Notes under the pieces: generated by a model | The model's input: only the letters and a program-made list of their open reading frames with translations | What the model was told of the DNA's origin: nothing | Databases searched by the model: none | Virus record (IMG/VR): IMGVR_UViG_3300028802_000004 | Location: 1-38,872 of that record | Direction: 5' to 3' (one strand) | Source of the DNA: a virus | DNA length: 38,872 nucleotides | Shown: positions 27,950 through 36,234 of the stretch, in pieces | How the letters are laid out: every line of letters starts with the position of its first letter | Position numbering within the stretch: the stretch's first letter is position 1 | Made by a program: the position numbers and the translations under genes

Positions 27950-28121
27950 TATCGCCCTTCCTGCGACCGGGTTGCCAGTCGCCGATGACGGGGCCGCCGA
28001 GGCGGGGTACGTCGTAACCGGGTGGCCGCGGTCCGCTTGGCTGGGCGGTGCGCTGATAGAGCGTGTGCAGCATGCCGGCGTAGCGGCGCTCTTCGTCGGT
28101 GGGGTGGGTCTTTTTAGGCAT
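27849..28121 (-). CDS. Small hypothetical protein, antisense-overlapping with end of 905-aa gene, 90 aa
   Basis: Last gene of the leftward block. Residues 1-60 look like a real protein (MPKKTHPTDEERRYAGMLHT; GYDVPRLGGPVIGDWQPGRR), with AGGAG 6 bp before the ATG at 28121. Residues about 57-90 (Pro/Ala/Asp-rich) lie antisense to the 3' end of the 905-residue gene. That tail may exist only because the opposite gene keeps the frame open. There is no other gene in 27950-28120. Function unknown. Confidence 0.55.
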   Translation of the reverse strand: MPKKTHPTDEERRYAGMLHTLYQRTAQPSGPRPPGYDVPRLGGPVIGDWQPGRRKGDITIHDPPAAVATAPKCPADSDQTPPADPGSRSS

Positions 28122-28123
28122 CG

Positions 28124-28141
28124 CAGTCTCCTCTAGGAGGT
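28124..28141. promoter_or_regulatory. Overlapping divergent ribosome binding sites
   Basis: The segment CTCCTCTAGGAGG serves both strands: AGGAGG lies 4 bp before the plus-strand ATG at 28145, and the complement AGGAG lies 6 bp before the minus-strand ATG at 28121. CTCCT and AGGAG form an inverted repeat, so the two messages would each carry a ribosome site inside a small stem. Confidence 0.7.
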
Positions 28142-28142
28142 G

Positions 28143-28658
28143 TCATGGAAAGTCTGTTGTCGTTGCTGGTAACGGTGATCGTGCTGGGCCTGGTGTGCTA
28201 TCTGCTGTACTGGCTGATCGGGCAAATTCCACTGCCGGCGCCGTTTGCGGTGGTGGCGAAGGTGCTGCTGGCGCTGTTTGTGGTGCTGCTGCTGTTGAGC
28301 CTGTTGTTTGGTTGGGCGCCGATCCCGCGGCTACATATGCGTTGACCCAGGCGATGATGTCCCCGGCGCGCCAGAGTAGTGGCTTGCCGGGCCGCGCCGG
28401 GTGCGGGAAGCCGGGCTTCTTGCCGACCCGCTCGAGCGTGCGCGGGGCGTAGTGCAGGTAGTCGGCGACCGCTACCTTGTCCCACAACAGCTCCTCGGGC
28501 CGGCAGGCGAGCTCGAGTGGCAGCTTGAGCTGGCCGTCGATCGCGTGTTGATAGTCGCAGCCGGCGGCGAACGCATCGCGCAGTGAGCGGCGGGTAAATT
28601 GCGGCTCTTCGCGGTCCTTGACCCAGTCGTCGAAGGCTTCCCTTTGCGCTGCGGTCAT
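28143..28658 (-). CDS. DNA-binding winged-helix protein (AlpA/excisionase-like) with antisense-encoded tail, 171 aa
   Basis: Residues about 56-108 contain ELLWDKVAVADYLHYAPRTL and PGKPLLWRAGDIIAWVNA, the layout of AlpA/MerR-type winged helix domains that read a DNA site and act as regulators or excisionase-like factors. ATG 28658 has AGGAG 5 bp upstream and overlaps the previous stop as ATGA. From residue about 105 on the protein is Ala/Pro/Thr-rich, and its codons switch to A-ending ones because the opposite strand encodes the two-span membrane protein. The tail is probably disordered. Confidence 0.75.
   Translation of the reverse strand: MTAAQREAFDDWVKDREEPQFTRRSLRDAFAAGCDYQHAIDGQLKLPLELACRPEELLWDKVAVADYLHYAPRTLERVGKKPGFPHPARPGKPLLWRAGDIIAWVNAYVAAGSAPNQTTGSTAAAPQTAPAAPSPPPQTAPAVEFARSASTADSTPGPARSPLPATTTDFP
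28145..28345 (+). CDS. Two-span small membrane protein, holin candidate, 66 aa
   Basis: Residues 4-25 (LLSLLVTVIVLGLVCYLLYW) and 36-57 (AVVAKVLLALFVVLLLLSLL) are membrane segments, joined by IGQIPLPAPF. The 'IPLPAPF-xxVAxVxL' linker is a pattern I recall from small phage and bacterial membrane proteins. AGGAGG site 4 bp upstream. It follows the late operon on the same strand, so late expression is expected, which fits a holin. The whole gene is antisense to the tail of the HTH gene 28143-28658. Confidence 0.7.
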   Translation: MESLLSLLVTVIVLGLVCYLLYWLIGQIPLPAPFAVVAKVLLALFVVLLLLSLLFGWAPIPRLHMR

Positions 28659-28990
28659 GTCGGCTCCTTGGGTTGGGCGAGGGCAGCGCGAGCAGCTTCC
28701 CATGCGAGTGGCTTGCGCTTGAAGTATTCCGCCTTTACCTCGGAAAGATCGGGTGCTGGAGGATATCCAACAATAATGTCCTTCATTGCCTTGAGTTTCA
28801 CAAGCTCATCGATCGCCGCACGCAGCCGCGCCACCTCCGCATCGCGTGCGGCGAGTGCGTCCTGCAATTCAGCGACTTGCTTGGTATCGCTGCGCTTCAG
28901 ATGCCCGATCTCCGCATCGCGTGCGGCGAGTTGCCGCTCCAGGGTTTGGACTACCCTGGTTAGTTCGATGACATCGTTGGCATTGCTCAT
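28655..28990 (-). CDS. Coiled-coil protein, 111 aa
   Basis: Residues 5-70 form a heptad-rich helix with an internal repeat: LAARDAEIGHLKR and LAARDAEVARLRA, about 26 residues apart, so the helix grew by duplication. The C-terminal part (YPPAPDLSEVKAEYFKRKPL) is short and folded-like. It overlaps both neighbours as ATGA. Similar small phage coiled-coil proteins exist without known function. Confidence 0.7.
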   Translation of the reverse strand: MSNANDVIELTRVVQTLERQLAARDAEIGHLKRSDTKQVAELQDALAARDAEVARLRAAIDELVKLKAMKDIIVGYPPAPDLSEVKAEYFKRKPLAWEAARAALAQPKEPT

Positions 28991-29322
28991 CGGGTCACCT
29001 GTATCAACCCCTCGCGCCAGAGGCGCAGCCAGGTACGGTCCATGGCGCGTCTGAACATCTGCTGGCGGTCGGCGCGTTCGCTGGTATAGATATTAGTCGG
29101 GTCGCGGCCGGTGCCCTGGTCAAGCCAGCGATGACAGGCGGCGCAGAGGTGGGCATGAAAGCAGTCATGCGCCTTTAGTGCACCACCCTTGCCGTGGATC
29201 GACATGTTGCTATGCGCCGGCTCGCAGGGCCCGATCGCGCCGCAGTTGCCGCAGACCGCGTCCAGGCTGTGGGCCAGATCGAGCAGGCGGCGGTTGCGGT
29301 ACTGCGGGTACTGATCGATCAT
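28987..29322 (-). CDS. YbcO-like (DUF1364) HNH-type nuclease
   Basis: 111 residues. Zinc-site residues Cys24, Cys27, Cys33 and Cys60-x2-Cys63-His64 surround AHSNMSIHGKGGALKAHDCF. A C-terminal MDRTWLRLWREGLI matches the end of the lambdoid YbcO/DUF1364 family, which comprises small His-Me-finger nucleases near NinG-type recombination genes. Its company of SSB and an annealing protein supports a role in recombination or DNA processing. ATGA overlaps at both ends. Confidence 0.75.
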   Translation of the reverse strand: MIDQYPQYRNRRLLDLAHSLDAVCGNCGAIGPCEPAHSNMSIHGKGGALKAHDCFHAHLCAACHRWLDQGTGRDPTNIYTSERADRQQMFRRAMDRTWLRLWREGLIQVTR

Positions 29323-29663
29323 GCCCCATACCCCCTTCGCTCGGCGCGTTTGGTGGCCTCCTGGGTGCGCCAGACGTCAGCGCGGATGGAAGTGACCTGG
29401 AGCTCCCAGCGCAGCGTCTCAGCGCGCTCCATGGCCTCCCTGAGGCCCTCCAGGAGCTCCAGGTAGTCCGGGTGGCAGCGCGCGTCGCGCTCCTGGGCGG
29501 CGGAGCTGGTGGCGCCGTGGGCCTCGGCCGCTTTCATGAGCATCGCCAATTTGCTCTTTTTGAACTCGTCCAGGTACGCCACCTGGGCTTTGGCTTTGGC
29601 GTACTGCGGCGCCAGCTCGCGCAGCTCGTGCATGCGCCGCTCGATCGCTTCATCGGAGGCCAT
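29319..29663 (-). CDS. Conserved phage helical protein, 114 aa
   Basis: Starts MASDEAIERRMHELRELAPQ at ATG 29663. The long helical segments YAKAKAQVAYLDEFKKSKLA and EGLREAMERAETLRWELQVT, with a motif 'AHPxYLELLEGLRExxExxExLRWEL', are recognisable from an uncharacterised family seen in many phages. Upstream open frame (52 more codons) is shadow of the neighbour. Overlaps the preceding gene by 14 bp and the YbcO-like gene by ATGA. Possibly a recombination accessory protein by company only. Confidence 0.7.
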   Translation of the reverse strand: MASDEAIERRMHELRELAPQYAKAKAQVAYLDEFKKSKLAMLMKAAEAHGATSSAAQERDARCHPDYLELLEGLREAMERAETLRWELQVTSIRADVWRTQEATKRAERRGYGA

Positions 29664-29967
29664 CGGCTGCCTCGTGGGCCCATTCGGCGGCCTGATCGAA
29701 CGGCTGACCCTGGCCGGCGCGCAGCCGGGCGATCGCTTGCTGGCAGGCGACGTCACTCTCCAGCCCTTCCAGGCGCTCGGCCAGCGCCTCGTTTCTGGCC
29801 CGCAGCGCTGGGGCTTCAATGATCAGCAGCGCATCAGCCGAACCGTTACGGCCGATCACCGGCAGGAAGCATACGGTCTTGTTGCGCGCGCCGACAATGC
29901 GCCCGCCCTTGCCGCGCGGGTTGTGCAGCAAACGCCAGGGGCCTGCGGTATTGGTTTGTTCGTTCAT
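29650..29967 (-). CDS. Hypothetical protein, 105 aa
   Basis: Start ATG 29967 has AGGAG 7 bp upstream; the extra upstream ATG at 30000 is less likely. Residues 8-50 contain AGPWRLLHNPRGKGGRIVGA and NKTVCFLPVIG, a beta-rich start similar to short phage proteins that begin 'PWxxx...GxxIxxxxxxxIaxxx'. The second half is helical (ALRARNEALAERLEGLESDV) and probably a short coiled coil. It sits just downstream of SSB. Function unknown. Confidence 0.65.
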   Translation of the reverse strand: MNEQTNTAGPWRLLHNPRGKGGRIVGARNKTVCFLPVIGRNGSADALLIIEAPALRARNEALAERLEGLESDVACQQAIARLRAGQGQPFDQAAEWAHEAADGLR

Positions 29968-29977
29968 GGTCGTGCTC

Positions 29978-30397
29978 CTAAAATGGAATGTCGTCATCAA
30001 ACGGATCGGTGGCCTTCACCGCTTTTTGTGGTGCCTCAGGGCCGCTGAGCGGCAAGCTGTCCGACTTGGCTTTGGGATCGCCAAGCAACTTCAGGTCGCG
30101 CACGTTGACTTCGGTCATGTAATGCTTGACCCCGTCTTTCTCCCAGTCGCGGGTTTGCATCCGCCCCTGGACATAGATCTGCGAGCCCTTGCGCACGTAC
30201 TTCACTGCGATCTCGGCTACCTTGCCGAAGAAGCTCAGCCGGATCCACTCGGTCTTTTCCTGCTTGGCGCCGGACTTGTCTTTCCACTGCTCGTTGCAGG
30301 CGATCGAGAAGTTGCACACCGCGGTGCCGTCCGGGAGGTACTTGGCGACCGGGTCGGACCCGGCGTAGCCGATGAAAGTGCAGCTGTTGACGCTCAT
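29978..30397 (-). CDS. ssb: Single-stranded DNA-binding protein (SSB)
   Basis: 139 residues. The OB fold begins MSVNSCTFIGYAGSDPVAKY and continues VCNFSIACNEQW, TEWIRLSFFGKVAEIAVKYV, KGSQIYVQGRMQTRDWEKDG, all standard SSB motifs. A short linker follows and the acidic tip DDDIPF binds host partners such as replication and repair proteins. Coats single-stranded DNA in replication and recombination. ATGA overlap with the annealing-protein gene upstream, so the two are coupled and probably function together. Confidence 0.96.
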   Translation of the reverse strand: MSVNSCTFIGYAGSDPVAKYLPDGTAVCNFSIACNEQWKDKSGAKQEKTEWIRLSFFGKVAEIAVKYVRKGSQIYVQGRMQTRDWEKDGVKHYMTEVNVRDLKLLGDPKAKSDSLPLSGPEAPQKAVKATDPFDDDIPF

Positions 30398-31359
30398 ACT
30401 TCCTCCTCGGTTTTGGCCCGCCGGCGAATTTCCTCGCGCTTGATGGACGAGCGGAATTCGGAGTCGAACAAGAACCAGATCGCGAGCTTGTCCTCGACGT
30501 CGAAGTTGAATTCCTGGAACAGGTCGACTGCCTTGACGATGCCGTGCATGGCATAGGCGGCGACCACGTCTTGTGCCTTGCGCTCGAGCACTTCCTTGGC
30601 GCTGGCGTCAAGGGCATTGAAGGCCTCCTCGGTGACGTTGCGGGCCGACCCCTTCGGGGGCTCGCTGTCGCCGCGGGGGCGCTCGGGCGTGAGCGCAGTC
30701 GAGCTGGGATGAACTCCGACATCTTTGCTGGCGTCGGTATCCTCATCGGGGTGCAGCTGGCCTTTGTGCCAGAGCTCGAGCGCGGCGCCAAACCTCATGC
30801 CGGCATTTCTCAGCGCGTCGCCGATGGCTTCCTTGGTGCGGCTGCCGACGTCCATGTACGACTTGCGCTCGGCGTTGCCGTAGCCGATCCGGGTGACGCC
30901 GCACACCGTAAGGCGGATCCACAACCCGCCCTCTGGATCAAACCGCGGCAGGCCGTCCTCGCCTTTGGCCAGCGGCTCCCAGGACCAGCCCGGGTCGGCC
31001 TCGAGCAGCCGGTCGGTCAATGCGGCATGGCCGACGTAGTCGAGATGGATGACGTCGGGGTGATGGAAACCGCCGCAGATGTCGCAGCGCTTTTTCAGGT
31101 TGGGCGCGCACTCGTTCTGGGCCTTGGTGCCCTTCGGTAATTTGGAGATATGGTGCGGCGGGAACGGCGTGCGCAGCAGCTCCAGCCCGGTGGGGGCTGG
31201 GGGCGGCGACTGGTTGGCGGCTTTGGCGATCGGGCCCTTTTCGTATTCCTCTTTACCGACTTCGGCTTGTTGCTGACTCACGGCTTTTCCTTTGCGGTTG
31301 AATTTATCGAGCTCGAGCGCGACACGCCGGCGGAGCTCCTGGTCGGACAGCAGCGTCAC
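30394..31359 (-). CDS. Rad52/Sak-like single-strand annealing protein, 321 aa
   Basis: Core at residues about 106-198: HLDYVGHAALTDRLLEADPG, then WIRLTVCGVTRIGYGN and SRTKEAIGDALRNAGMRFGA, matching the Rad52/Sak annealing fold. Preceding it are Cys84, Cys92, Cys95 and His99, a possible zinc site uncommon in this family. The C-terminal part (about 205-321) is charged and helical, perhaps for SSB contact. ATGA overlap with ssb. Role: annealing of complementary strands in phage recombination or replication. Confidence 0.8.
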   Translation of the reverse strand: MTLLSDQELRRRVALELDKFNRKGKAVSQQQAEVGKEEYEKGPIAKAANQSPPPAPTGLELLRTPFPPHHISKLPKGTKAQNECAPNLKKRCDICGGFHHPDVIHLDYVGHAALTDRLLEADPGWSWEPLAKGEDGLPRFDPEGGLWIRLTVCGVTRIGYGNAERKSYMDVGSRTKEAIGDALRNAGMRFGAALELWHKGQLHPDEDTDASKDVGVHPSSTALTPERPRGDSEPPKGSARNVTEEAFNALDASAKEVLERKAQDVVAAYAMHGIVKAVDLFQEFNFDVEDKLAIWFLFDSEFRSSIKREEIRRRAKTEEEV

Positions 31360-31700
31360 TCGACCCCCAGGTGGTAACGGATGTCGATGGTGTCCCAGCC
31401 CTCGCCGGCGATCACCGCATCGATCCAGCGCGCGCGCCAGCGGTCGATCACCTCTTTGTGCGACAGCTCGCCTGGGTTCATGATCTGCGCCAGCGCCTCG
31501 GGATGCTCGACGTTGAGCCAGTCGCAGCAGTCGCGGCTGATATCCAGGTCGCCGATCTCGAGCCGGAACGACAGCTCGTCCTTGACCCGGCTGGCGCAGT
31601 CGCGGCGCAGCCGCACCTGGAGACCATGCACCCGGCGGTGCAGCTCCTGGGCCTGGGCGATATGGACCTGCCTGAGCACTTCGGTGTCGCGGTCGTTCAT
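31356..31700 (-). CDS. Hypothetical protein, 114 aa
   Basis: Helical N-terminal half (TEVLRQVHIAQAQELHRRVH) and a mixed middle (SFRLEIGDLDISRDCCDWLN) with two adjacent Cys. The C-terminus, RARWIDAVIAGEGWDTIDIR, is mixed alpha/beta. ATG 31700 and both ends overlap neighbours as ATGA. Upstream of the annealing protein in the operon. No family recognised. Confidence 0.65.
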   Translation of the reverse strand: MNDRDTEVLRQVHIAQAQELHRRVHGLQVRLRRDCASRVKDELSFRLEIGDLDISRDCCDWLNVEHPEALAQIMNPGELSHKEVIDRWRARWIDAVIAGEGWDTIDIRYHLGVE

Positions 31701-31900
31701 GGCGCGAGCGTCAAGCGGGTGCGCCGGCGGTTGCTGATGCCGATCGCGCGGTACCTGGCGATGTAGTCGGGGAAGGCGTCCTGGATGCGCTTGCTGTTGC
31801 TCTCGTCGGCGTGCAGCCAGGCCTCGCCCAGCAGGCGTACGAAGCTGCCTCCGGTTTCTTGCATGGCGCGGATCACCTCGAGCTTTTCGTCGTGGGTCAT
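31697..31900 (-). CDS. Hypothetical small protein, 67 aa
   Basis: Starts MTHDEKLEVIRAMQETGGSF at ATG 31900, which overlaps the previous stop as ATGA. Contains a helical FVRLLGEAWLHADESNSKRI and AFPDYIARYRAIG. The conserved-looking 'MxETGGSFVRxLGEAWLxAD..N..ri..aFpdyw..Y' pattern is one seen in other phage genomes, without known function. The longer frame upstream of ATG 31900 is shadow. Confidence 0.7.
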   Translation of the reverse strand: MTHDEKLEVIRAMQETGGSFVRLLGEAWLHADESNSKRIQDAFPDYIARYRAIGISNRRRTRLTLAP

Positions 31901-32109
31901 TTCGCCGCCTCGACGCGGGTTACGGCGCCGACCAGCGTCTGCCGGCGGTTGCGGGTGCGCGGCTTGCTGTTGACGGCCGAGATGACGCCGCGCAGGTTGA
32001 AGTCGGCCTCGGCGACGACCTGGGTGAAGATGTCGACGGCGACGCCATCGGTGGTGCCGGTGCTGGTGTCGCCACCGAATTCGGTGACGGTGATGCGGTA
32101 CTGTTTCAT
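31897..32109 (-). CDS. Small beta-rich protein, 70 aa
   Basis: Starts MKQYRITVTEFGGDTSTGTT at ATG 32109 with GGGAG 5 bp upstream. The rest (VDIFTQVVAEADFNLRGVIS then RRQTLVGAVTRVEAAK) suggests a small beta-alpha fold. ATGA overlaps on both sides. The very long upstream reading frame is antisense or out-of-frame sequence of neighbours. Unknown role. Confidence 0.65.
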   Translation of the reverse strand: MKQYRITVTEFGGDTSTGTTDGVAVDIFTQVVAEADFNLRGVISAVNSKPRTRNRRQTLVGAVTRVEAAK

Positions 32110-32288
32110 TCTGACTCCCTGGGTTGGCGTGGTGCGTTGTGACTGCGTAGCAGCATGGCATCGGCGAAGGCGTAGGCCAGGTTGGCGTAGTCGTCGATGA
32201 TGTCCTGGTGGAACCTGGTCTCCTCGGTGCCGCCTGCCAGCGCCCCTTGCAGGGCGGTGGCGGCGAAGAAGTCGCGTAGGGTGATCAC
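32106..32288 (-). CDS. Conserved small phage protein (RDFFAATALQG motif), 60 aa
   Basis: GTG start at 32288 overlaps the upstream stop as GTGA. The opening ITLRDFFAATALQGALAGG and later NLAYAFADAMLLRS match a well-known small phage protein pattern (tlRDyFAaxalqg... AYxxADAMLxaR) of unknown function. Because that pattern begins at the fourth codon, the GTG start is well supported even without a strong ribosome binding site. Confidence 0.75.
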   Translation of the reverse strand: MITLRDFFAATALQGALAGGTEETRFHQDIIDDYANLAYAFADAMLLRSHNAPRQPRESE

Positions 32289-32557
32289 TCGGTAGCCTCG
32301 TACAACTCGGCCCACTGCTCCTGGACTGCTTCCTCCCACCATTCCTGGCCGACTGCGCGGAGACCGTCGACGAACTGCTCGGCGGTGACCGCCTGGCACT
32401 CCTCGTTGAACTCCAGCCAGCCGGTGCGGATCTTGTTGCCGTCGTCGGTGCGGCACTGCTCCAGCAGCGCGGCACGGGCGCGGTCATTCATCTCTTCGCT
32501 GACCGCCGGGTCGAAGGCGTCTTCGTCGCGGCTGGACAGTTGGTGTTCGTAGTTCAT
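32285..32557 (-). CDS. Acidic hypothetical protein, 90 aa
   Basis: Strongly acidic and rich in Trp/Glu near the C-terminus (VGQEWWEEAVQEQWAELYEA). N-terminal half: SSRDEDAFDPAVSEEMNDRA. Such small acidic early proteins can be DNA mimics that inhibit host nucleases or regulators, but this is a guess from charge alone. ATGA overlap upstream, GTGA downstream. Confidence 0.65.
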   Translation of the reverse strand: MNYEHQLSSRDEDAFDPAVSEEMNDRARAALLEQCRTDDGNKIRTGWLEFNEECQAVTAEQFVDGLRAVGQEWWEEAVQEQWAELYEATE

Positions 32558-32778
32558 GCTGCTTCCTTTTTCTGCCCAGCAACCAGGGCGAGGGTGGCGT
32601 CGAGCCGTTCCCGGTTGATGGGGTAGGAACCGTCACCGAGGGCGCAGGCCAGTTCGCGCAGAATGTATGCGGCGTGATGGGCGGCACCTGCCACGCTGCC
32701 GGCGATCACCGCCGACTCGGCGATGGTGTCGAGTTGGCGGCAGGTGTTCTGGATGGCGCTGCTGTCGTGCTTGGACAT
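32554..32778 (-). CDS. Hypothetical helical protein, 74 aa
   Basis: Helical, with an Ala-rich middle (IAESAVIAGSVAGAAHHAAY) that could be a weak membrane or packing helix, and a short Lys/Glu end (GQKKEAA). ATG 32778 lies 2 bp after the previous stop. Overlaps next gene as ATGA. No family recognised. Confidence 0.65.
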   Translation of the reverse strand: MSKHDSSAIQNTCRQLDTIAESAVIAGSVAGAAHHAAYILRELACALGDGSYPINRERLDATLALVAGQKKEAA

Positions 32779-32780
32779 GA

Positions 32781-32987
32781 TCAGACTCCGTTGGCGCGTT
32801 TGTAGATGGAACCGTGGATGCCGACGCTGTACGACAGCGACTTCAGGGCGTGACGCTTGGCATCGTCGTACTCGCCATCGTCAAGCGCGGAGACGGCATT
32901 GCTCAGGTGTGCCCGTGCTTGCTGCTCTTGAACCACGTCGGCGGCGATATGGCGACGGGCGAGGGTGACTACTTTGGCTGCGTTCAT
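32781..32987 (-). CDS. Hypothetical helical protein, 68 aa; first gene after second leftward promoter
   Basis: It begins MNAAKVVTLARRHIAADVVQ and is mostly helical with an LSNAVSALDDGEYDDAKRHA segment that resembles a single TPR-like helix pair. GGAG(C) ribosome site about 6 bp upstream (AGGAGCAAAGAA). It follows the promoter at 33020-33048 with a leader of about 30 bases, so it may be abundant early in infection. Function unknown. Confidence 0.65.
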   Translation of the reverse strand: MNAAKVVTLARRHIAADVVQEQQARAHLSNAVSALDDGEYDDAKRHALKSLSYSVGIHGSIYKRANGV

Positions 32988-33019
32988 TTCTTTGCTCCTG
33001 GTGCGTTGTCGATGTCTGA

Positions 33020-33048
33020 ATTATCAGCGCAGCGTAGAAAAGTGTCAA
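33020..33048 (-). promoter_or_regulatory. Leftward sigma70 promoter, near-consensus
   Basis: Minus strand: -35 TTGACA (33043-33048), 17-bp spacer, -10 GATAAT (33020-33025). Upstream tract TTAGAAAAGC-TA repeats that of the promoter at 34400-34428 (TTAGTAAGAAAAC-TA), which suggests a shared UP element or operator. Drives 32987 down to 27849. Confidence 0.85.
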
Positions 33049-33065
33049 TAGCTTTTCTAATAATA

Positions 33066-33320
33066 TCAGAGGCCATTGTCGTATTCCTGCTGCAACAGAT
33101 CCTGGATGGCAGCGTCCTTCGTAGGCCCCCGGCCGATCAGACATCCCGGTTCGTAGCCGTCGCGGTAGGCGGACCAGTCCATCGAGCGAATGGGGATCGG
33201 TGGATAGTCGAAGTAGACGTGGATGCGCTCGGACTTGACCTTGAACCCGGAGCGCTTGCGCAGCCGGGTCAATTCCACGCCCATCGGCTCCCACGGCACG
33301 AGCTTATAGTTGGTCTTCAT
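33066..33320 (-). CDS. Hypothetical protein, 84 aa
   Basis: ATG 33320 lies 1 bp after the previous stop, giving MKTNYKLVPWEPMGVELTRL; upstream in-frame ATGs at 33350 and 33356 are possible but would overlap the neighbour. Mixed alpha/beta with a HVYFDYPPIPIRSMDWSAYR middle and a C-terminal GRGPTKDAAIQDLLQQEYD, similar to HicB-like or 'dsRBD-like' small folds only in outline. Last gene of the first leftward unit; the second promoter lies just after it. Confidence 0.6.
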   Translation of the reverse strand: MKTNYKLVPWEPMGVELTRLRKRSGFKVKSERIHVYFDYPPIPIRSMDWSAYRDGYEPGCLIGRGPTKDAAIQDLLQQEYDNGL

Positions 33321-33321
33321 G

Positions 33322-33534
33322 TCAAGGCAACAACTGTCTAGTTCGTGCATTGACATGGGCGACGATCACCTGGGCGAGCTCGAGTTCGCGGTTGACCAGG
33401 TCGGCGATGTACTGCTCGTGATCGGCCTGGGCACGCAGCCGCTCGCGCACCCGGGCGAAGGTGGCGCCGACGTCGGTCGACGCCGAGTTGCGGTAGACGA
33501 ACCTGGGATCCAGGATGGACAGCGGAGGGTTCAT
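33322..33534 (-). CDS. Hypothetical protein, 70 aa
   Basis: Starts MNPPLSILDPRFVYRNSAST, then VGATFARVRERLRAQADHEQ and a helical C-terminus VNRELELAQVIVAHVNARTR. The motif 'ILDPRFVYxxSxxTDVxxTFxRVRxRL' is recalled from other phage genomes as a small conserved protein without function. Ribosome site weak; close to the stop of the preceding 27-residue gene. Confidence 0.65.
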   Translation of the reverse strand: MNPPLSILDPRFVYRNSASTDVGATFARVRERLRAQADHEQYIADLVNRELELAQVIVAHVNARTRQLLP

Positions 33535-33536
33535 GG

Positions 33537-33620
33537 TTAAAGTCCGGTGAGATGAAGCACGAGCAGCACGAAGGCGGCCAGGGTCAGCACCAGCGCCACG
33601 ACACGGTCGGCGGCGCTCAT
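33537..33620 (-). CDS. 27-residue single-span membrane microprotein
   Basis: This frame reads MSAADRVVALVLTLAAFVLL then VLHLTGL and ends TAA (33537). One uninterrupted hydrophobic helix covers residues 7-25. The ATG overlaps the previous stop as ATGA, and the next gene begins 3 bp later, so the reading frame fills exactly the gap between two genes. It is too short for usual gene finders. It might modulate a host membrane protein or be an early membrane toxin; nothing more can be said. Confidence 0.6.
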   Translation of the reverse strand: MSAADRVVALVLTLAAFVLLVLHLTGL

Positions 33621-33826
33621 GCTTCCACCCGGATCTCTACGTCGCCAGCGAACCCGCGATAGCGGTCACGTTGGGCCTGCGCGAAGTCTTCCGCTTGATA
33701 CTGGCAGGCGAACTGATGCGCCTCGGAGCGCACATCGGTGCTGAACCCTTCGCAACCGGATCCGCCCAGGTAGGCGTCGCCGCGGCGGCCATCAGAGTGA
33801 ACTGCGTTTTTCAGAACGACGATCAT
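33617..33826 (-). CDS. Hypothetical protein, 69 aa
   Basis: MIVVLKNAVHSDGRRGDAYL leads into a GSGCEGFSTDVRSEAHQFAC middle and a C-terminal AQRDRYRGFAGDVEIRVEA. Mixed alpha/beta with two Cys. ATGA overlaps at both ends. Not recognised. Part of the first leftward transcription unit after the 34400-34428 promoter. Confidence 0.65.
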   Translation of the reverse strand: MIVVLKNAVHSDGRRGDAYLGGSGCEGFSTDVRSEAHQFACQYQAEDFAQAQRDRYRGFAGDVEIRVEA

Positions 33827-34032
33827 GCCGGCTCCTTTATGGCCGCGGCGTCGAGCGCGAGCGGCTTGATGCCGAGCGCGGTGTCGATATCGTCGATCAA
33901 GGTCTCGACGTTGCTCAGGTACGGGTGCAGGTGGAGCAGCACCGTGAGGCAGCCAGAGGCCTTAGCCAGTAGGTGCCGGGCACGGTCCTTGTCTTCCTGG
34001 GACCATTCCTGGTAGGTGTTGGGCAATTCCAT
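33823..34032 (-). CDS. Hypothetical helical protein, 69 aa
   Basis: ATG 34032 has AGGAG 7 bp upstream and starts MELPNTYQEWSQEDKDRARH. The rest is helical (LLAKASGCLTVLLHLHPYLS) with a final acidic-hydrophobic segment. ATGA overlap with next gene. No known family. Confidence 0.65.
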   Translation of the reverse strand: MELPNTYQEWSQEDKDRARHLLAKASGCLTVLLHLHPYLSNVETLIDDIDTALGIKPLALDAAAIKEPA

Positions 34033-34399: not shown

Positions 34400-34428
34400 A
34401 TTATCGGAGTAGTGTAGGTATGTGTCAA
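34400..34428 (-). promoter_or_regulatory. Main leftward early promoter, near-consensus
   Basis: Minus strand: -35 TTGACA (34423-34428), 17-bp spacer, -10 GATAAT (34400-34405). Upstream of -35 lies TAGT-tttctt-ACTA (34429-34442), an inverted repeat that could be an operator for the divergent repressor. The spacer and leader share positions with the 33020-33048 promoter. Confidence 0.88.
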
Positions 34429-34454
34429 TAGTTTTCTTACTAATTTTATCGGTG

Positions 34455-34483
34455 TTGCAAATAAGCACGGCTATTGCGACAAT
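34455..34483 (+). promoter_or_regulatory. Promoter of repressor gene, likely giving leaderless mRNA
   Basis: TTGCAA (34455-34460), 17-bp spacer, GACAAT (34478-34483). The -10 ends 7 bp before the ATG at 34491, so transcription would start at or next to the A of the start codon. No ribosome binding site precedes the ATG, as for lambda cI transcribed from pRM. Confidence 0.6.
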
Positions 34484-34490
34484 AGGCGCC

Positions 34491-34754
34491 ATGAACCTCA
34501 TAGACTATTTGCAGACCACGACCCAGCAGGAGCTGGCCGACCGCCTGGGGGTGACCCAGGGGGTGATATCGCAGTGGGTGGTCGGCCGCGCCCCGGTGCC
34601 GCCCGAGCGCGCGGTGGCGATCGAGCGCGCCACCCGCGGCGAGGTGACCCGGCTCGAGCTCAGACCGGATGTTTTCGGTCCGCTGGGGGTCCGCAGGAAA
34701 CGACGCAATAAGAATTCGCCGACCCCGCATGGCGGCGATCCCGGCAGTGCTTAA
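34491..34754 (+). CDS. Cro/YdaS-like repressor, 87 aa
   Basis: HTH at residues about 12-31 (QELADRLGVTQGVISQWVVG) followed by VPPERAVAIERATRGEVTRL and LRPDVF, the exact order seen in Cro/YdaS-type regulators of lambdoid phages. The end is basic (RRKRRNKN). ATG 34491 chosen because the HTH begins there and upstream residues are out of character. Divergent from the main leftward promoter; probably binds the intervening operators. A strong hairpin terminator follows (34780-34816). Confidence 0.85.
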   Translation: MNLIDYLQTTTQQELADRLGVTQGVISQWVVGRAPVPPERAVAIERATRGEVTRLELRPDVFGPLGVRRKRRNKNSPTPHGGDPGSA

Positions 34755-34779
34755 TTCCTTTCGACTGCACGGGTGTTTG

Positions 34780-34816
34780 GGGGGTGGTGTACGGAGCCGT
34801 AGACCACCCCCGTTTT
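34780..34816 (+). terminator. Strong hairpin terminator after repressor gene
   Basis: GGGGGTGGT (34780-34788) pairs with ACCACCCCC (34803-34811), and inside it TACGG (34790-34794) pairs with CCGTA (34797-34801), broken only by a single G-G. GTTTT follows. The result is a very stable stem that probably ends the repressor message or limits expression of the two genes downstream. Confidence 0.8.
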
Positions 34817-34828
34817 CAGGAGGGTGTC

Positions 34829-35011
34829 ATGGTCTACGACCTGGATGGAGAGGTGTGGGTGATCCTGGGTGAGGGGGAGGTGATCATCCGGCTGGCGGCG
34901 ACGCTCGAGCCGGACGAGACGCTGACCTATATCGGGCCGGCGGAAAAACCTCAGGCCAGAGGTATCAGGAAAAGTGGAACCTCAGGCCAGAGGTTCCAGA
35001 AAACGAGGTAA
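34829..35011 (+). CDS. Hypothetical small protein, 60 aa, with repeat-bearing C-terminus
   Basis: ATG 34829 has AGGAGGG 6 bp upstream. MVYDLDGEVWVILGEGEVII looks like a small beta domain (WVILGEGEVIIRLAATLEPD), then a basic tail encoded by two copies of a 17-bp repeat (34947-34963, 34978-34994). The tail (PQARGIRKSGTSGQRFQKTR) may not be functional protein but shaped by the repeats. Lies right after the terminator hairpin. Confidence 0.6.
   Translation: MVYDLDGEVWVILGEGEVIIRLAATLEPDETLTYIGPAEKPQARGIRKSGTSGQRFQKTR
34947..34997 (+). repeat. 17-bp direct repeats, the second in a perfect hairpin
   Basis: AACCTCAGGCCAGAGGT occurs at 34947-34963 and 34978-34994 (31-bp period). Each contains CCTC-aggcca-GAGG; in the second the stem extends to GGAACCTC/GAGGTTCC (34976-34997). 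The following AGAAAA gives no T-run, so it is more likely a protein-binding or RNA-processing site than a terminator. Confidence 0.75.
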
Positions 35012-35207: not shown

Positions 35208-35262
35208 TCGGGCAAGTAGTTTTCCTTTACTTCCCATTTTCCCAGATGTAAGCTATTCCACG

Positions 35263-35377
35263 TCGAGTGGCATCGGCGACACGCAACGAAGGCCCTCTGG
35301 TAGAGGGGTGGACCGGATAATACCGGCGGCTTTGTTGCGTAAGCTGATGCCATCCGTCCCTCGACCACAGGGCCTTT
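35263..35377 (+). ncRNA. Candidate structured RNA with three-way junction
   Basis: Helices read on the plus strand: P1 GTCGAG/CTCGAC (35263-35268 with 35361-35366); P2 TGGCATCGGC/GCTGATGCCA (35269-35278 with 35344-35353); P3 ACGCAACGAAG/CTTTGTTGCGT (35282-35292 with 35331-35341, one G-U); then two hairpins inside, CCCTCT/AGAGGG (35294-35308) and CCGG/CCGG (35314-35327). AAGGCCCT (35290-35297) can alternatively pair with AGGGCCTT (35370-35377), just ahead of a TTTT, like a switch or terminator. No known RNA family recognised. The minus-strand RNA would fold too. Confidence 0.6.
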
Positions 35378-35553
35378 TCCTATGGCGATGGACAGACTGG
35401 CCGGCGGCGCGGGACTGATCAGCGACAGGCGCCGCAGGCGAGAAGTGGTACTGGTCGGATAGCGATGAAAGACCACACATAGGGGCGGTGAAGCTAGCAC
35501 CCCTTCGCGCAAGGCTAGCCCGGCACGCGGCTCCGACGGTGAGAAACTTCGCC

Positions 35554-35562
35554 TGTGGATAA
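35554..35562 (-). promoter_or_regulatory. Consensus DnaA box
   Basis: TGTGGATAA is the complement of TTATCCACA, the consensus high-affinity DnaA site. A weaker TTATCCTGG lies at 35580-35588 in the other orientation. Between and around them are stem-forming sequences, and an AT-rich stretch lies about 80-130 bp to the right. Supports a host DnaA-dependent origin. Confidence 0.7.
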
Positions 35563-35706
35563 CTCTGAGCAGCTGCGAATTATCCTGGTGACCCGGGATG
35601 GTTCCGGCTGCTCACCAACGGTGAAACGCAAGTGGTTTTGACCTTGACTCTATATGTAAGAAGTTGCTTTTGACTTTTCGTTGAAGCGAAGAGAGGGAGT
35701 ATCTCA

Positions 35707-36234
35707 GTGGACGGCACGACTGCTGATCTTTTCGAGTACGGGATCCACACCGAGCACAGCGACATTCGAGCTCATGTGTCGGTCGTCAACCGCGCGGTCT
35801 ATGTGTTCCTGACCAAGAACGGGATCGCCGCGGCCGCGCTGCGCCAGGTGCCGCTAGTCGACGCCGGCCAGCCTGGGGTGAAGGGCAGGACCGCCGAGGG
35901 CTGGTTGGTCAAGCCGGAGTGGATCGCCGACCTGCGCCGGCTGCCGTTCGTTTCCTGGCCGCGCTGGGGCGACTTCGATCCCGGGATGACGACCACCGAG
36001 AAGGGCGCGCTGGCCGTGCAATGTGTGTTGCAGACGATGAAGCTCGGGCGCTTTCCGATCTGGTTTGACGCCACCGAGGACGATCGCCACAACGTGCAGA
36101 TCCTGGGCACCGATATCCTGGTGTTCTGCAAGAAAAAGGTCCAGGTCAAGTGCGACTGGAAGTGTGGCGGTCCGCTCGGTACCGGTAACCTGTTCCTGCA
36201 GAAGGCCGAGCGCAACCCGCTCAAGCGGCACTGA
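35707..36234 (+). CDS. PD-(D/E)XK nuclease-like protein, 175 aa
   Basis: GTG start at 35707 with GGGAG 8 bp upstream. The C-terminal half has Asp136 in GTDILVFCKKK and Gln146-x-Lys148 in KVQVKCDW, a D...(E/Q)xK arrangement typical of PD-(D/E)XK enzymes, followed by GNLFLQKAERNPLKRH. The last motif is recalled from a set of phage proteins of this kind. Residues 1-120 have no named domain. May be a Holliday-junction or structure-specific nuclease. Its stop overlaps the next ATG by one base. Confidence 0.7.
   Translation: MDGTTADLFEYGIHTEHSDIRAHVSVVNRAVYVFLTKNGIAAAALRQVPLVDAGQPGVKGRTAEGWLVKPEWIADLRRLPFVSWPRWGDFDPGMTTTEKGALAVQCVLQTMKLGRFPIWFDATEDDRHNVQILGTDILVFCKKKVQVKCDWKCGGPLGTGNLFLQKAERNPLKRH

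Follow-up and report, generated by a model that had tools for sequence, protein, structure and literature searches.

Two neighbouring RNA elements in a gene-free interval of a viral contig: an attenuator-like 5′ element and a divergent Betaproteobacteria-1 RNA

Introduction

The Betaproteobacteria-1 RNAs (Rfam RF02932) are defined by a covariance model of 120 positions, with three stems bearing the letters ACUG, UGAAA and GGNGGNGAAGC, and are associated with betaproteobacteria and their phages. The family was reportedly described by Weinberg in 2017 among 224 motifs, and no paper naming it turned up in the literature searched. Two other systems offer points of comparison for structured RNAs in phage operons. 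Intrinsic-terminator attenuators combine mutually exclusive folds that share strands, one of which ends in a run of U, within an operon. The put RNA of phage HK022 is a structured RNA of a phage early operon, ca. 70 nt in length and composed of two stem-loops, which acts in cis on RNA polymerase and for which that study reports no pseudoknot (PMC9378689).

Genomic setting and coding status

The window, meaning the whole stretch of DNA analysed (38.9 kb), is a viral contig whose left side carries terminase, portal and major head genes and whose right end looks lambdoid; searches found no named phage or plasmid that it resembles at the DNA level. Its minus-strand left arm encodes a single-strand annealing protein (30394-31359), a strong promoter-like site lies on the minus strand at 34428-34400, and AT skew turns negative in 28001-34000, consistent with the minus-strand genes of a left early arm. 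On the plus strand, the Cro-like gene listed below is followed by two small ORFs, the interval 35208-35706, a 175-aa gene and a possible nuclease (phrog_93, weak).

34422..34754, plus strand: Cro-like early regulator (Pfam P22_Cro 3.6e-9, YdaS 7e-20; phrog_35 transcriptional repressor 2.1e-19)

Because of this layout, with the Cro-like gene upstream and the annealing protein on the left arm, the right early operon of the phage probably includes the interval. A long hairpin (GGGGGGTGGTGTACGGAGCCGTAGACCACCCCC, 34765-34852), located after the Cro-like gene and before the following ORF, is kept in L002, an 88%-identical relative, and has sub-threshold Rfam matches only.

The interval extends from the end of a small ORF (35207) to the start of the 175-aa gene (35707). 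The ORFs of at least 60 aa that overlap it are minus-strand frames only, and these are broken because the interval differs from L002 by indels of 1 and 2 nt. It holds no conserved frame, as a preliminary description of this DNA had proposed. That description also considered it highly structured, which is borne out by a plus-strand folding energy of −207.9 kcal/mol against −178.5 ± 6.9 for shuffled sequences (z −4.2; none of 100 shuffles equal). As the opposite strand also folds at z −3.8, the folding score alone leaves the strand of the RNA unsettled; the Rfam match and the covariation described below fix it as the plus strand.

Throughout the 38.9-kb window, the sole Rfam match above cutoff is RF02932 at 35401-35523. 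The gap therefore divides into two neighbouring RNA elements rather than one, of which the 3′ element can be assigned to a family and the 5′ element cannot. Hence the earlier view of a new RNA outside any known family holds for the 5′ half only; it is wrong for the 3′ half, where the RF02932 match above cutoff identifies a known family.

The 3′ element

The 3′ element comprises the following features.

35401..35523, plus strand: Rfam RF02932 core (58.3 bits, gathering cutoff 49.4, E 2.2e-8, model 1-120 of 120)
35399..35638, plus strand: extended Betaproteobacteria-1 RNA (R1 covariance model, 94.3 bits, E 1.2e-25, positions 1-207 of 207)
35462-35465 (GCGA) with 35505-35508 (TCGC), plus strand: pseudoknot helix P2.1 (covariation; not in the Rfam structure)
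35482-35485 (GGGG) with 35500-35503 (CCCC), plus strand: pseudoknot helix PK1 (CGGG/CCCG in L002; covariation; not in the Rfam structure)
35533..35542, plus strand: direct repeat X1, CCGACGGTGA (repeat comparison)
35566..35614, plus strand: terminal hairpin S5 between the direct repeats (folding; compensatory differences from L002)
35615..35624, plus strand: direct repeat X2, CCAACGGTGA (repeat comparison)

The whole RF02932 model is matched above its cutoff and the three Rfam stems with their characteristic letters are present in the alignment, so that 35399-35638 is a divergent, full-length member of the family. The copy is among the most divergent, scoring 58 bits with the RF02932 model against ca. 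85–110 for most others. With R1, whose 207 positions were derived from 28 sequences, it scores 94 bits against 120–198 for most relatives, the training set including the window and many of these relatives. Among the loci compared, R1 gives 46 further or known matches at E < 1e-8. A likeness of the core to helices h22-h24 of 16S rRNA was considered and rejected, as the local alignment score to a real Burkholderiales 16S locus (44) is that of shuffled sequences (43.2 ± 5.5; 130 of 300 as high).

Past the end of the Rfam model, a conserved 3′ extension of ca. 80–115 nt is common to some 35 relatives (ca. 115 nt in the window, ca. 80 nt in most of them). In the alignment it runs, in order, through a stem CATGC/GCATG, the motif TGAAGGC, a hairpin with covarying strands, and YCACC. 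Within the core are two helices that cross the Rfam stems, neither of which was found in the Rfam structure line of RF02932 and whose pairs were not given when R1 was built. P2.1 connects the loops of stems 2 and 3 (GCGA/TCGC in the window, GTTGC/GCAAC in L002); over 24 distinct sequence combinations its pairing reaches 96.6% and 51 cells show double changes, whereas exchanging the partners among sequences gives 61.8% and 13.9. PK1, in which GGGY pairs with RCCC, interleaves with P3 (the third Rfam stem, 35493-35498/35514-35519) and shows double changes in three of five pairs; its covariation score of 0.215 compares with a shuffled mean of 0.092 and is reached in none of 500 shuffles. Beside PK1, reading the alignment by eye shows wobble partners that switch between U-G and C-A. 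The core is thus predicted from its aligned relatives to fold as a compact double pseudoknot, with two helices new to RF02932.

The two direct repeats, each ca. 10 nt, follow GGCTCC in the loop of the fourth stem and CACC at the 3′ end. They are nearly alike within a phage and different between phages (CCGACGGTGA/CCAACGGTGA in the window, CCGAAGGACAGG/CCAAAGGACAGG in L032, CCGAAAAGCAAC/CCAAAAAGCAAC in L024), even where the first 120 nt of the RNA are identical (L016, L017, L033). Across 34 sequences the mean X1/X2 match score is 7.38 within and 5.05 between sequences (permutation sd 0.21), none of 5000 permutations exceeding 5.85, a comparison that overstates independence because some rows are close relatives. 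Neither a third copy, such as iterons or guide targets would provide, in 11 phage genomes nor a position standing out as their complement, inside the RNA or up to 200 nt away, was found. Such repeats, varying between phages yet matched within each, are unusual and need explaining; their matching argues for a single partner reading both. The Rfam model, which is without the extension, the two pseudoknot helices and the paired repeat seen in the window, is incomplete in size, topology and repeats.

A pattern for the RF02932 core finds 27 viral contigs, all 27 confirmed by the Rfam model, and also matches genomes of Variovorax, Paraburkholderia (two), Thauera (two) and Ottowia. The relatives accordingly belong to betaproteobacteria and their phages. 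Only 5 of 399 Burkholderiales genomes exceed the RF02932 cutoff, which fits a phage-borne element, and no further genome with the RNA was found among 369 drawn from the class. In at least 10 distinct phages the RNA begins 7–72 nt (mostly 7–30) past the stop codon of a Toprim-motif protein, called by the motif EG[YF][AV]TG and in one case confirmed by Pfam (Toprim_3, 1.2e-6); in Acidovorax phage AP1 this preceding gene is annotated as a primase. In other relatives the RNA follows different early genes, again in early or replication operons, and in L183 terminators stand both before and after it. In two genomes of Burkholderiales, G036 (a Paraburkholderia) and G295, copies are scattered between metabolic genes in intergenic positions, and some of them have decayed. 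Copies that stand alone in this way speak against the second RNA acting only in cis.

The 5′ element

The 5′ element is described by two competing folds, A (the rod) and B (the terminator).

35226..35254, plus strand: weak promoter-like TTTACT-17-TAAGCT directly upstream of the rod (read from aligned sequences; below the consensus threshold)
35258..35378, plus strand: bistable attenuator-like RNA, fold A against fold B (both in the window/L010, L012 and L013; z about −4 each)
35267..35353, plus strand: fold A, whole span (constrained folding, as for its parts)
35267-35277/35343-35353, plus strand: fold A P1, 11 pairs
35281-35290/35331-35340, plus strand: fold A P2, 10 pairs
35293-35298/35302-35307, plus strand: fold A hairpin a, the P3 of the preliminary description, 6 pairs
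35313-35316/35323-35326, plus strand: fold A hairpin b, a small hairpin at the three-way junction
35289..35378, plus strand: fold B, 35289-35296/35369-35376 and 35298-35301/35364-35367, stacked on a second helix of ca. 10 bp, with UUUU at 35375-35378

Constrained folding recovers exactly the 27-pair rod drawn previously (11 + 10 + 6 pairs, closed by a three-way junction). An 8-bp alternative pairing beside a T-run, noted at the same time, is real and larger than supposed: helices of 8 bp and 4 bp flank a single mismatch and stack on the ca. 10-bp helix. In fold B the middle of the rod pairs with downstream sequence, giving a predicted terminator stem of more than 20 bp that is followed by UUUU, encloses a loop of ca. 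60 nt and competes with the rod.

Relatives on three other contigs make up, with the window (four contigs), three lineages: the window with L010/L002, L012, and L013/L003. The same two folds are obtained in all three, with a U-run in each, and are near-equal in energy in two of them. In the window fold A has −52.0 and fold B −56.7 kcal/mol; in L012 fold A is the overall minimum at −65.2 and fold B has −64.1; in L013 the values are −50.8 and −65.3. Helix sequences of both folds vary among lineages with pairing intact (for example, AAGGCCCU/AGGGCCUU against the fold B helix AGCCCCGCUA/UAGCGGGGCU of L012/L013). In both elements, then, pairing is kept in relatives by compensatory change, which supports the reading of the interval as structured RNA.

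In L012 and L013 the 5′ element is present and the second RNA absent. That their DNA after the rod might be a diverged second RNA was rejected, since it yields no R1 match at E 0.1, no above-chance Rfam match in L013 and a folding z of −0.08. For the 5′ half itself the best Rfam match, a plant microRNA model (MIR3627), reaches 24.9 bits against a cutoff of 64 and is dismissed as an effect of the long hairpin. A loose rod pattern gives at least 120 matches, and stricter patterns found no new homologue.

The recurrence of two mutually exclusive folds, one ending as an intrinsic terminator, in three lineages with differing sequences points to an attenuator. Thus, 35258-35378 is assigned with moderate confidence to the transcription attenuators, with terminator and antiterminator anatomy; the claim is kept at that level because the folds are seen in three lineages only and the tail has no more than four U. 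The element shares with described attenuators the exclusive folds with common strands, the U-run end and a place within an operon; it differs in the unusually long stem and the four U, and no ligand, leader peptide or antisense RNA was identified.

Proposed function and alternative explanations

An attenuator at 35258-35378 followed by a separate, repeat-presenting RNA with a partner at 35399-35638 is the preferred joint explanation, at a probability of roughly 0.55. The nascent strand of the 5′ element would take either the rod, in which case polymerase passes, or the long terminator hairpin with UUUU, in which case transcription ends. In the second RNA, the double-pseudoknot core would be followed by two tails that terminate in copies of one ca. 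10-nt sequence specific to the phage. This RNA is most probably a discrete non-coding molecule, either freed from the early transcript by processing or transcribed from a promoter of its own. The biochemical role that we infer for it is binding of a partner, protein or nucleic acid, that would recognise the repeated tail. A bolder and doubtful extension is that the extended Betaproteobacteria-1 RNAs act in trans, their bodies presenting two hypervariable, co-evolving address copies that set each phage's specificity; if so, the addresses might serve, for example, immunity between phages or partner choice. An orphan Rfam family thereby becomes open to experiment: its full length is described, its topology gains two helices, and its variable sequence, present as a pair, must be matched by some partner. 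The two-state 5′ element offers a simple target for a transcription assay, in a phage lineage for which this analysis identified no cultivated member.

Several alternatives bear on this explanation. The 5′ element could be a small RNA in its own right, with a promoter and a terminator of its own, rather than an operon attenuator. All three lineages retain a TTGAC-like box and the start of the RNA, while the L012 spacer diverges (TTGACT-17-CAAGAT in L013 and TTGACA-19-TACGAT in L012 align with the window's site), and the 3′ end is terminator-like. Against this, no promoter before the rod passes a consensus scan, and the terminator stem with its ca. 60-nt loop competes with the rod as in attenuators, so that the small-RNA reading appears somewhat unlikely. 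For the second RNA, put-like antitermination is an unlikely role: it would act in cis on RNA polymerase for read-through of later terminators, the rod being one barrier. Its place inside long early operons with many same-strand genes downstream, its fixed structured core and the RNA-only precedent of HK022 putRNA would suit such a role (PMC9378689). The rod, however, lies upstream rather than downstream, stand-alone chromosomal copies and the terminator-flanked L183 units have no operon to serve, and the variable repeats are left without explanation. The window RNA, at ca. 240 nt and with crossing helices, also differs from the put RNA, which is described as two stem-loops in ca. 70 nt, no pseudoknot being reported (PMC9378689).

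Less probable again is a ribozyme or RNA guide whose repeats are substrate, or guide and target. Several pseudoknots, strongly conserved loop letters, paired sequences that change fast and the exact deletion between the repeats of one decayed chromosomal copy (L217:16893-17053) would agree with it, but a nuclease, transposase or reverse transcriptase gene was not seen beside the RNA, the 11 phage genomes hold no matching target, and the deletion is explicable as ordinary slippage. The reading of 35208-35706 as a DNA element, such as the replication origin suggested earlier, is very improbable. The window does contain a single perfect DnaA box (TTATCCACA, 35554-35562, minus strand; 0.29 expected), kept in L002 though its neighbours have moved, and relatives adjoin primase genes. 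Yet no DnaA-box cluster, iteron array or GC-skew turn was found, and relatives retain the RNA helices through compensatory change, including the U-G to C-A wobble exchange.

Related loci

Four Betaproteobacteria-1 RNA copies, some decayed, lie on one strand within ca. 41 kb of one Paraburkholderia contig among metabolic genes (L217:4951-5067, L217:16893-17053, L219:4798-4914, L219:9622-9732). A different family, EGFOA RNA (RF02955), occurs at L007:4669-4782 (47.7 bits) just after a homologue of the window's 175-aa gene (35707-36234); it differs in sequence and fold from the window RNA, and the window has no RF02955 match. L002 has ca. 230 bases more than the window between the RNA and the 175-aa gene (L002:3583-4000). 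In L004, L005 and L006 a gene with LYADPPWSYG-like motifs, of MT-A70 methyltransferase type by eye, replaces the RNA region directly before the homologue of that gene.
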